DNA of 64,000 nt. It comes from an uncultured Clostridia bacterium (GTDB taxonomy: Bacteria; Bacillota; Clostridia; Christensenellales; Borkfalkiaceae). The stretch covers positions 1 through 64,000 of the forward strand of contig CALVHS010000029.1 in the NCBI GenBank assembly GCA_944328665.1. Reading direction: 5' to 3'. Below, piece after piece: positions 6,661 to 33,983 of the stretch. A program made the translations under genes and the position numbers. Position 1 is the first letter of the stretch. Every line of letters begins with the position of its first letter. The notes under the pieces are model-generated. The model was not told the DNA's origin. It saw nothing but the letters and a program-made list of their open reading frames with translations, and did not search any database.

Positions 6661-6863
6661 CGATACAGCGATCACCGGGGCCGAGTTTGGAGGCGGATCC
6701 GGTCACAGCAAAACCCAAAAGAGGGCAGCGTCCCCCGGTCGCGCGCCGCGCTTCGGCTGTTGCAAAAGTCGGTGCAGCATCAAAAAAACAAGAGAGCAGA
6801 CAGATCGTCGTTTACTAGTAAGTGTCGGTTTATTTTGCGCCCGACACCGTCGGGCGTTTTTTT
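6661..6863 (+). ncRNA. Unassigned possible RNA segment ending in a terminator with an alternative fold
   Basis: This gene-free segment ends in a clear intrinsic terminator. Upstream, GTGTCGG (6822-6828) can pair with CCGACAC (6841-6847), which overlaps the left arm of the terminator, so the two hairpins exclude each other as in attenuators and riboswitch expression platforms. I tried to match tmRNA, RNase P RNA, SRP RNA, 6S RNA, T-box and common riboswitches and found none of their signatures. No coding frame follows on the plus strand before 8947. It could be a stand-alone small RNA or the end of the signal peptidase mRNA. Left end and function are unknown. Confidence 0.3.
6838..6863 (+). 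terminator. Intrinsic terminator
   Basis: CGCCCGAC (6838-6845), loop ACC, GTCGGGCG (6849-6856), followed by seven Ts (6857-6863). Classic form, plus-strand orientation, immediately left of the repeat array. Confidence 0.8.
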
Positions 6864-6875
6864 GTTGTTATATGG

Positions 6876-7368
6876 TTCACGAAATTTCTTTTAAGCTGAT
6901 AAAAGAAATTTCCGTGATGTAAGGGGAAACCCGAACGGTTTTCCCCTCTGCGCGGCATATATAAGGGCACGCCATTTGCATGCCGCGCATTCACCCTTTC
7001 CGTAAGCCAAAGTGTTGGCAAATAGGGGTGCGCTGCGGAAAAGTGCGATTTCCCTTGCGCGAGTAAAAATTTTGAGGCGCCCCCCACAAGGCTTCCCCCC
7101 GGGGGGAAGCTGTCACGAAAACAGGGCTCCCAAAAAGTATCGAAGAACTTTTTGGGAAGAGGAGACGCAGGGAGGAAAGGCGAGGCGGCAAGCAATGCGC
7201 GCCGCCTGCAAAACGACCCTTGCGTCGACGAGATGAGGGGGCATCCTGATTTATCTTCAACAGGGCTCCCAAAAAGTATCGAAGAACTTTTGGGAATCAG
7301 CGCCTCATCCGTCAGCCGCTGCGGGCGGCTGACACCTTCCCCTACGCGGGGAAGGCTATAATAGTGTG
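6876..7368 (+). repeat. Composite repeat, copy A (complete)
   Basis: First of four related units. It opens with a 41-base hairpin (6877-6917). Element X follows (AAGGGGAAACCCGAACGG through TTGCGCGAGT). Element Y then holds a perfect 20-base palindrome (7091-7110), a CCCAAAAAGT/ACTTTTTGGG hairpin and a CTCATCCGTCAGCCGC double-hairpin end, closing with CTATAATAGTG. Within this copy the CCCAAAAAGT hairpin segment occurs twice (7129 and 7270 regions), so it is about 40 bases longer than copy B. No credible gene lies in it. Confidence 0.9.
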
Positions 7369-7822
7369 TTCACGAAATTTCTTTTAAGCTGATAAAAGAA
7401 ATTTCCGTGATTAAAGGGGAAACCCGAACGGCTTTCCCCTCTGCGCGGCATATTTAAGGGCACACCTTTTGCATGCTGCGCATTCACCTCTTCCGTAAGC
7501 CAAAGCATTGGCAAATAGGGGTGCGCTGCGGAAAAGTGCGATTTTCCTTGCGCGAGTAAAAATTTTGAGGCGCCCCCCCCCAAGGCTTCCCCCTCGGGGG
7601 GAAGCTGTCACGAAAACAGGGCTCCCAAAAAGTATCGAAGAACTTTTTGGGAAGAGGAGACGCAGGGAGGAAAGGCGAGGCGGCAAGCAATGCGCGCCGC
7701 CTGCGAAACGTCCCTTGCGTCGACGAGATGAGGGTGCATGCAATTATTAAGATACGCCTCATCCGTCAGCCGCCGCGGGCGGCTGACACCTTCCCCTGCG
7801 CGGGGAAGGCTATAATAGTGTG
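7369..7822 (+). repeat. Composite repeat, copy B (complete)
   Basis: Near-identical to copy A in both elements. It has the same hairpin (7370-7410), the GCTTCCCCCTCGGGGGGAAGC palindrome-like block (7585-7605), one CCCAAAAAGT hairpin and a fully paired GTCAGCCGCC/GGCGGCTGAC followed by CCTTCCCC/GGGGAAGG. It ends with the same CTATAATAGTGTG that precedes copy C. Confidence 0.9.
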
Positions 7823-8018
7823 TTCACGCGATTTGTTTTAAGCTGATAAAACAAATCGCCGTGATGTAAGGGGAAACCCGAACGGTTTTCCCCTCTGCGC
7901 GGCATATTTAAGGGCACGCCATTTGCATGCCGCGCATTCACCTCTTCCGTAAGCCAAAGCATTGGCAAATAGGGGTGCGCTGCGGAAAAGTGCGATTTTC
8001 CTTGCGCGAGTTATAGCG
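7823..8018 (+). repeat. Composite repeat, copy C (element X only)
   Basis: Contains the hairpin (7824-7864) and element X, stopping after TTGCGCGAGT where element Y would begin. The hairpin carries paired changes relative to copies A and B (GCGATTTG with CAAATCGC instead of GAAATTTC with GAAATTTC), so the stem is kept while the sequence differs. Confidence 0.88.
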
Positions 8019-8183
8019 TTCACGCGATTTGTTTTAAGCTGTTAAAACAAATCGCCGTGAGTTGGAGTATCCTCTCCAAGGCTTCCCCCTCGGGAGAGGA
8101 AGTTGTCACGAAAACAGGGCTCCCAAAAAGTATCGAAGAACTTTTTGGGAATCAACGCCTCATCCGTCAGCCGCCGCGGGCGG
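8019..8183 (+). repeat. Composite repeat, copy D (element Y only)
   Basis: Contains the copy-C version of the hairpin (8020-8060, with a loop change) joined directly to a diverged element Y: AAGGCTTCCCCCTCGGGAG, ACAGGGCTCCCAAAAAGT hairpin and CCTCATCCGTCAGCCGCC. It ends inside the double-hairpin segment, 5 bases before the stop codon of the leftward flavodoxin-like gene. Confidence 0.85.
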
Positions 8184-8187
8184 AAGG

Positions 8188-8754
8188 TCATGATAAGGAT
8201 GGCGTATTCCGGTCTTTTGAGAGCCTTTCCGCCTCTTCTATGACGGGGCGGGCGGAGGAAAGGTCGGTAAATTCCACCTCTCCGCCGTAGGAAGATAAAA
8301 GCTGTTTGTCCTCTTCGCTTTTGTCTCTTTTCTTTTTCAGGTAGGCGATCAGCATCGCCATCATCGCGCGGTGTTTCAGCCCCAGCTTTGTGTATTGTAT
8401 GCCGCCGCGCAGGCAGAACACGGGCAGCGTTCCTTTCTGTTCGGGGGGCAGCTTTTTTTCAAACAGCATGCGCGCTTCCCTTTGCGTCTTTTCTTTGGCG
8501 GGGTCGGCAAGCCCGCATACGAACAGGACGATGCGTTTGTCTTTCGCCCGCCGTAAAAGGCGGGCGGCTTTGCGCCATCCCGCAATGCTGCCGGCATACA
8601 CGCCGCCGCCGAAGATGACGACGTCCGCTTCCGCCATATCTTTCCTTTTTGCCTTGCCGACGGGCAGCGCCCTGCATCCGAGCGCCTGCGCGATGTGCTT
8701 TGCATAAGCCTCCGTCCTGCCGTAGCGAGAACCGTACAACACGAGCGTTTTCAT
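8188..8754 (-). CDS. Flavodoxin-domain protein (HemG/flavodoxin_5-like)
   Basis: Soluble FMN-binding redox protein of 188 aa. The N-terminal strand and phosphate loop (LVLYGSRYGRTEAYA, residues 4-18), the second strand with VVIFGGGVYAGSI and the third (RIVLFVCGLAD) match the flavodoxin-like domain of protoporphyrinogen-oxidase HemG and related proteins. The C-terminus is a basic helix (LIAYLKKKRDKSEEDKQ) plus a tail. ATG 8754 is preceded by GGAGAAAAAAA. It is a single-gene unit, and the last copy of the repeat array abuts its stop, perhaps acting as its 3-prime end. Electron donor and substrate cannot be read from the sequence. Confidence 0.85.
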   Translation of the reverse strand: MKTLVLYGSRYGRTEAYAKHIAQALGCRALPVGKAKRKDMAEADVVIFGGGVYAGSIAGWRKAARLLRRAKDKRIVLFVCGLADPAKEKTQREARMLFEKKLPPEQKGTLPVFCLRGGIQYTKLGLKHRAMMAMLIAYLKKKRDKSEEDKQLLSSYGGEVEFTDLSSARPVIEEAERLSKDRNTPSLS

Positions 8755-23379: not shown

Positions 23380-24120
23380 ATGGCAGAAAAGAGGGTCGCC
23401 CTCATCACGGGGGCGGGCAGGGGGATCGGCGCGGCCATCGCGCTCACCCTCGCCAAAGAAAATACGGACATCGCCGTCGTCGACTACGCCGACGAAAGCG
23501 CCGCGGCGGAAACGCTGGCGGCCCTGCGGGAAGCGGGCGCGGCAGCCCGCTATTACCGGTGCGACGTGTCCGACTTCGCTGCGGCCAAAGAGGTCGTCGA
23601 CGCGATCGCCAAGGATTTCGGCAAGATCGATATCCTCGTCAACAACGCGGGCATCACCGCGGATAAACTGATCTTGCGCATGGAGGAAGAGGACTGGGAC
23701 AAGGTGCTGGCCGTCAACCTCAAAGGGTGCTTCAACATGATCAAACATGTCACCCCGTACATGATGCGCAAGCGCTGCGGCAGGATCGTTTCCGTCAGTT
23801 CGGTCGTGGGGCTGATGGGCAACGCGGGGCAGGCGAATTACGCCGCTTCCAAGGCGGGCATCGTCGGGCTGACCAAGACGGTCGCCAAAGAATTCGGCCC
23901 GCGCAACATCACGGCGAACGCGGTCGCGCCCGGCTTTATCAAGACGGCGATGACCGAAGCGCTGTCCGAAGAGCAAAAGAAGGCGATGTATAAACTCATC
24001 CCGCTCGGCTGCCTCGGAGAAACGCAAGATATTGCCAATGCGGTAAAATTTCTCGTCTCCGACGACGCGCGCTATATCACGGGCGTCGTCTTGAAAGTGG
24101 ACGGGGGCATGTATATTTAA
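23380..24120 (+). CDS. fabG: 3-oxoacyl-ACP reductase
   Basis: NADPH-dependent short-chain dehydrogenase, 246 aa, for the first reduction in fatty acid elongation. Rossmann motif TGAGRGIG, NNAG with ITAD after it, Ser in VSSVVGLMGN, and the YAASK pair (Tyr154, Lys158); the end YITGVVLKVDGGM is family-typical. ATG 23380 follows AAGAGGT. A 137-base gap with no gene separates it from fabF. Confidence 0.95.
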   Translation: MAEKRVALITGAGRGIGAAIALTLAKENTDIAVVDYADESAAAETLAALREAGAAARYYRCDVSDFAAAKEVVDAIAKDFGKIDILVNNAGITADKLILRMEEEDWDKVLAVNLKGCFNMIKHVTPYMMRKRCGRIVSVSSVVGLMGNAGQANYAASKAGIVGLTKTVAKEFGPRNITANAVAPGFIKTAMTEALSEEQKKAMYKLIPLGCLGETQDIANAVKFLVSDDARYITGVVLKVDGGMYI

Positions 24121-24257
24121 AGAACTTCACGCGTTTTTCGGCGGGCGGCAAGCCCGCGGAACGTCGCAATCGCAGGGGCTGCCCGCGCGGGCTCCCCTTC
24201 GGTCACGGCATTTTGTTTTGGACGGCAAAGCAAAGTGCCCGCACCGGGAGGAATCGT

Positions 24258-33761: not shown

Positions 33762-33915
33762 GCACTGAAAATTGCATAGAAAAGTTCCGATACCGCAGAA
33801 AGCAGGCACCGCAAGGTTTAATGGAAACGCCCGCCGAGGTCGTAAGAGCAGCCGTTTGCCGCACTATGGCACAACGAGCCCTTATATCCGCGCGGTATAA
33901 GGGCTCTTCGTTTGT
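33762..33915 (+). promoter_or_regulatory. Ribosomal protein L10 leader with terminator hairpin
   Basis: A structured leader with the conserved CCGCAGAAAGCAGGC, CCGCAAGG and GCCCGCCGAGGTC segments of the L10(L12)4 autoregulatory leader (the Rfam L10 leader type). It ends in GAGCCCTTATA (33876-33886) pairing with TATAAGGGCTC (33896-33906), followed by TTCGTTTG, the attenuator arm. Excess L10-L12 complex binds the leader and lowers rplJL expression. Confidence 0.82.
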
Positions 33916-33983
33916 AAGATCGCGGAGATCCCGCCCGTCCGGAGCGGTTTCCGCGTGCTCAAATTTTTACAAGGAGGTAATCC

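Follow-up and report, generated by a model that had tools for sequence, protein, structure and literature searches.

Between positions 6876 and 8183 of the window, a 64,000-nucleotide stretch from an uncultured Clostridia bacterium of the family Borkfalkiaceae, lies a repeat array whose hairpin arms change together, which raises the question of what such an array is made of, whether it belongs to a wider family, and what keeps its arms paired. The initial annotation had divided it into two building blocks, X and Y, and both the order XY, XY, X, hairpin-Y and the fourfold opening hairpin (about 6876-6917, 7369-7410, 7823-7864 and 8019-8060) are indeed present in the sequence. The 5' arm of this hairpin, H, is GAAATTTC in copies 1 and 2 and GCGATTTG in copies 3 and 4, the 3' arm changes to match, and the same bulged C is kept in all four, as had been described.

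Elements of the window array

Y did not survive as a building block of the same family: it reads as two other elements, T plus an inserted K (one or two per T), and not as a unit. The array is best described not as one composite family but as three elements, X, T and K, arranged as X, T with two K, X, T with one K, X, and a cut-short X with T and one K. On this reading the window holds four X copies, the fourth truncated; T invaded the array three times, and K sits inside T. A forward array of four X units would have been invaded later by T and K, and its X-T stretch would have been duplicated once in tandem. The features are listed below, with bit scores from R1, a covariance model built from 20 X units.

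6837-6864, plus strand: intrinsic terminator immediately 5' of the array and outside X
6876-7066, plus strand: X unit A, outer hairpin H (about 6876-6917) and hairpins S1-S4; R1 209.8 bits over 6878-7066, DNA fold z = -7.0
7088-7357, plus strand: T element 1, palindromic ends AAGGCT...AGGCT, two K inside; from sequence, with uninterrupted T in L056:1-140 and at the end of L048 as comparison
7121-7231, plus strand: long K inside T element 1, with ACAGGGCTCCCAAAAAGT hairpin, GAGGAG, stem and CGACGA; K motif matches, copies elsewhere in the genome
7260-7296, plus strand: short K hairpin inside T element 1; K motif matches
7369-7559, plus strand: X unit B, H variant as in A; R1 206.7 bits over 7371-7559
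7582-7811, plus strand: T element 2 with one long K (7616-7726); 93% identity to T element 1 and its K over 168 nt, junction with X identical
7616-7726, plus strand: long K inside T element 2; K motif matches
7823-8013, plus strand: X unit C, H variant GCGATTTG/CAAATCGC; R1 208.8 bits over 7825-8013, RNA fold z = -5.5
8019-8067, plus strand: X unit D, truncated to H and GTTGGAG, then T; from sequence, with a weak R1 match (38 bits) across T over 8021-8222
8078-8183, plus strand: T element 3, 3' end truncated, with short K (8114-8151); from sequence and K motif

The array is flanked by the terminator on one side and by the stop codon of a minus-strand ORF (8188-8754) on the other. A 25-nt K motif matches four times in the window, against 0.00 matches expected from shuffles. 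Elsewhere in the window, positions 33775-33919 hold a ribosomal protein L10 leader (Rfam RF00557, 47.4 bits).

Outside the array, the host genome contains uninterrupted T, T with K only, X without T, K alone, and X and T together. T, found whole in L056:1-140, is palindromic and MITE-like, with AAGGCT...AGGCT ends and a variable C run on its 5' side; some relatives also have matches to T-like ends. The structured element K begins with ACAGGGCTCCC and, in its long form, ends in CGACGA. It looks like a separate structured mobile repeat (window 7121-7231 and 7616-7726; loci L107, L110, L033 and L034), inserted in T, next to tRNA-like sequence and, in several species, in S2 loops of X. In an S2 loop of an array at fabF, only one of the genomes G017 and G011 has K, and for K a clean, single-boundary empty site was observed. 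The idea that K is the end of an IS200-like element, raised by a K near a Y1 gene on contig C46, was dropped, as the remaining Y1 loci examined showed no convincing K. Because several X, T and K copies lie at contig ends, the host metagenome-assembled genome (MAG) probably undercounts all three.

These separate occurrences, together with the exchange of array stretches between species described below, bear out the modular recombination that had been suggested for the array. They also refute a one-off local duplication, in whose favour A with its T and B with its T are near-identical tandem copies that share the same X-T junction: X, T and K are dispersed through the host genome and the genus, and we give that explanation virtually no chance. 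Further copies and covariation, whose joint absence would have pointed to it, were both found.

Architecture and distribution of X

An X unit spans about 190 nt and consists of the 41-43 nt outer hairpin H, with GTTCAC reading inwards, followed by S1-S4. Larger X elements open with at least one forward unit, pass through an AT-rich centre (AATTATTTAAATAATT) and close with at least one reverse unit, with H outward at both ends and GTTCAC and GTGAAC as the outer ends of the array. Adjacent X units were tandem in 29 cases, tail-to-tail in 23 and head-to-head in none, and the tail-to-tail centres are usually 10-13 nt long and AT-rich. The loops of S1 (CCCGAACGG), S2 (AAGGGCACACC) and S4 (AAAAGYGYGRTTTT) are conserved, which suggests constraint beyond simple palindromes and counts against a plain DNA-palindrome account. 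No target-site duplication was detected at 19 elements, where k-mers shared between the flanks were no commoner than in shuffles. Among 149 upstream 12-mers, a GTAG tag occurs in 2 and CGTC in none; a G(T/C)TC motif is found there instead. Searches against Rfam 15 at gathering score gave no match at the X loci searched, and for the array itself, relaxed thresholds included, only weak matches at chance level.

Using R1, we found about 14 X units on 10 contigs of the host MAG, where copies at unrelated sites are near-identical (92-97%). Of 40 genomes from the genus Candidatus Borkfalkia, 37 contain X, often with at least 40 to 60 copies per genome; these counts score the best 64 candidates per genome, and in many genomes 50-64 of the 64 matched. 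The proposal that the array belongs to a dispersed non-coding family is thereby supported. In 400 kb of genome G013 about 15 X units lie at some ten places, the first 140 kb of contig C1 being free of them. An exact S1 pattern searched in GTDB contigs matched Candidatus Borkfalkia, which NCBI taxonomy places in Christensenellales, and unnamed Clostridia or Firmicutes MAGs. Across the family, R1 detected X in 51 of 151 genomes and 7 of 18 genera, own genus included, the units of other genera being diverged, and in two further families of the order (f6 and f14) three genomes carry ten or more copies. These distant-family copies keep the order H, S1, S2, S3, S4 and the S4 loop AAAAGYGYGRTTTT, or a loop near it. 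In distant genomes from which several X copies were sampled, those of one genome are mostly more alike (means of 61-87%) than copies from different families (about 50%). Amplification of X thus reads as lineage-specific, with diverged sets in other genera and in two other families of the order. All genomes are MAGs with many contig ends in repeats, and some arrangements could be assembly errors.

Several further leads were set aside. The class-wide matches examined in families f82 and f96 have no S4 loop, and X outside the order was not trusted. A viral origin was dropped after two exact X patterns gave no match in 2.9 million viral contigs. A HisS tree intended to date the spread was weakly resolved, with X-rich and X-poor species interspersed. 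An apparent X 5' of a fabG-like gene (L083) had the look of an attached leader but is probably an old insertion.

Gene junctions and exchange of arrays

By a crude ORF caller, 53 of 80 arrays lie between co-directional genes and 11 between divergent ones, some of the latter calls being antisense ORF errors (e.g., L186). Complete arrays that we read by hand are placed between a stop codon and the following ribosome-binding site (RBS) at asnS-plsX, smc-ftsY, priA-def, fabG-fabF and the gene before hisS, the gene names being assigned by reading translated ends. Across the genus, the hisS and fabF junctions hold arrays in many species and plain spacers of about 35-130 nt in others, and an array-less fabF junction occurs also in X-rich genomes such as G016 and G019. 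X itself, unlike K, gave no clean empty site marked by a single boundary. In the host genome, the fabG-fabF spacer (window about 24115-24255) resembles a decayed H...H' end remnant.

Pairwise comparison of these junctions separates the history of the arrays from that of their neighbours. The sequence leading to the stop codon before hisS matches at 98-100% between G009 and G032, whose arrays are then unalignable; identity resumes at CGTGAACGAGG. Conversely, G003 and G024 share 97% identity over a 305-nt array stretch and fall away just 3' of GTGAACAAA; hisS is 82% identical between them and the upstream gene similarly diverged. At fabF, a stretch 99.6% identical between G011 and G017 lies next to fabF genes that are 84% identical. 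X arrays, whole or in part, therefore behave as cassettes that pass between species as well as within genomes, irrespective of the genes beside them. Ordinary homologous recombination accounts for part of this exchange, because the tract common to G017 and G012 extends into the first part of fabF.

From sequence comparison we take as established the dispersal of X, its lineage-specific amplification, its forward-then-reverse order, its placement at gene junctions, its presence in some species and absence in others at one and the same junction, and its exchange independent of flanks.

Stem pairing, the mover and known systems

Two-sided changes were found at 33 of 52 stem pairs in alignment A1, at 51 of 52 in a set of 150 units and at 52 of 52 in 53 order-wide units. 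In the 150 units, 94.9% of stem cells are paired; shuffling lowers this to 69.9%, and sliding the structure to 37-54%. As the alignments followed the model in their fitting, the counts lean its way, although shuffled and slid controls lie far below, and none of 500 shuffles reached the covariation counts of the 150-unit or order-wide set. The covariation seen between the copies of the window is thus real across the family. In 43 confidently aligned pairs (6157 stem cells), G-T occurs 45 times (0.7%) and A-C 35 times (0.6%). A control of 19 tRNAs from the same loci gave 31 G-T and 0 A-C in 409 cells, a small set in which the structure caller may not mark A-C. Since selection acting on a single RNA strand would be expected to leave more G-U than A-C, their near-equal rarity points to palindromes maintained at the DNA level, or to template-switched arms, over one-strand RNA selection.

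This bears on the possibility that X functions as a structured RNA or mRNA element, serving 3' end processing, decay protection or the tuning of operon ratios, with pairing selected on the transcript. Arrays between co-directional genes and directly 3' of stop codons would suit such a role, as would the conserved loops and a five-hairpin plan kept across the order; but G-T barely exceeds A-C in the stems, X units occur in both orientations within one junction, congeners differ in array presence at the same junction, and Rfam matches over the array stay at chance level. We consider a transcript-level function unlikely.

The covariation might instead be mainly mutational, arising through template switching between arms and recombination between units, with no selection on structure. 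Arms change at several bases on both sides with almost no wobble intermediates, and template switching has been proposed, from reconstructed histories, as a creator and maintainer of perfect hairpins (PMC8794818). The host genome also holds chimeric H hairpins (L049 about 1470-1516 and L051 about 165-213), mismatched and with one arm of each window variant, which appear to reflect exchange between variants, as if recombined at the loop, an assembly error being the alternative. Such exchange forms part of the apparent covariation in the window, whose two hairpin variants look like two of many. A purely mutational origin does not by itself account for why hairpins keep the same number and sequence along the unit, why loops are conserved, why forward units always precede reverse ones and why cassette ends are precise across the order; we hold it to be very unlikely.

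We favour the reading that X is probably a family of non-autonomous, hairpin-bounded mobile DNA repeats. Movement would depend on some enzyme that recognizes the outward H hairpins in single-stranded DNA; this recognition and template-switch correction would jointly keep the arms paired, and the position next to stop codons may be what purifying selection has left. Weighing against this reading are the failure to find a mobilising enzyme or a target-site duplication, the lack of a clean single-boundary empty site for X, and the conserved loops.

The obvious candidate for the mover is a Y1 transposase, of the RAYT/TnpA-REP or IS200/IS605 kind, which would make X a REP/REPIN-type element. X is intergenic and palindromic, with inverted pairs, a bulged outer hairpin, tandem clusters and no target duplication, as in such elements (PMC3116915, PMC8266576), and Y1 matches occur in 23 of 40 genomes, the host genome having three matches. 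However, X and Y1 counts do not track each other: 17 of the 37 X-bearing genomes have no Y1 match (MAG incompleteness being a caveat), six of these with about 60 X (G001, G032, G061, G035, G009 and G027), whereas three genomes with 0 X (G062, G005 and G002) have 3-7 Y1 matches. Across the genus, Y1 matches tend to be more numerous where X is scarce or absent than in X-rich genomes, possibly for phylogenetic reasons. The GTAG tag, at 2 of 149 sites, and a unit of about 190 nt with five hairpins, compared with 20-50 nt, also argue against a Y1-moved REP/REPIN element, which we regard as quite improbable. On Y1 counts, GTAG and the lack of a target duplication, the REPIN-like, TnpA-REP mechanism put forward in the initial annotation was not upheld. 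In search of an autonomous form of X, we inspected four stretches of 400-5000 nt that separate forward from reverse units; none contained an obvious mobility gene, and one of their ORFs reads by eye as a DNA ligase. Neither Y1 counts nor the ORFs in these stretches yielded a mobilising enzyme for X.

A more far-reaching version of the mobile-repeat reading, which we put forward tentatively, is an order-wide DNA mobility or site-exchange system not described before, in which a single-strand-specific enzyme unlinked to Y1 would swap protein-free multi-hairpin cassettes precisely between stop codon and RBS, the cassettes acting as interchangeable intercistronic spacers.

Small palindromic repeats are common in bacteria, the mover is known for few families, and structure is usually inferred from one genome. 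With hundreds of X units in dozens of species, X offers clear two-sided covariation in a dispersed repeat, with a signal toward DNA and not RNA, and its natural swaps at orthologous junctions make repeat movement and arm matching directly testable by comparison and experiment. X is a new, previously unnamed family of a known kind, unusual in scale, architecture and exchange; a search of the open literature found no paper combining Borkfalkia with palindromic repeats. It appears to work like REP/BIME/REPIN and BOX elements but shows neither the GTAG tag nor the cognate Y1 of REP/REPIN. REP, BIME and REPIN elements of enterobacteria and Pseudomonas are extragenic palindromes in inverted pairs and tandem clusters, with a bulged stem in one REP group and outward palindromes bounding the element (PMC3116915, PMC8266576). 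X resembles them in being extragenic, palindrome-bounded and arranged in inverted doublets (23 tail-to-tail, 0 head-to-head), and differs in its five-hairpin unit of about 190 nt, in lacking GTAG and any relation to Y1 counts, and in arrays that are forward-then-reverse only and swapped as cassettes between species. BOX and RUP of Streptococcus pneumoniae are modular (boxA-B-C), strongly folded, intergenic, dispersed, and thought to be mobilised in trans (PMC3049150). X shares the modularity, strong folding, intergenic position and dispersal; but BOX and RUP are linked to the terminal repeats of resident insertion sequences (IS), no such IS is known for X, and the structure of X is larger, with two-sided covariation across many species. 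The bcr1 repeat of the Bacillus cereus group has a similar length, a conserved secondary structure and inferred mobility, and occurs as single units with a target duplication. On these general features X is alike in length, structure and inferred mobility, and differs from bcr1 in forming arrays and lacking the duplication, a lack (at the 19 elements compared) that also separates it from DDE-type MITEs. Integron attC arrays, finally, offer an analogy only: they too are arrays of folded sites with cassette exchange at fixed places, whereas X cassettes carry no ORFs and their hairpin layout differs.
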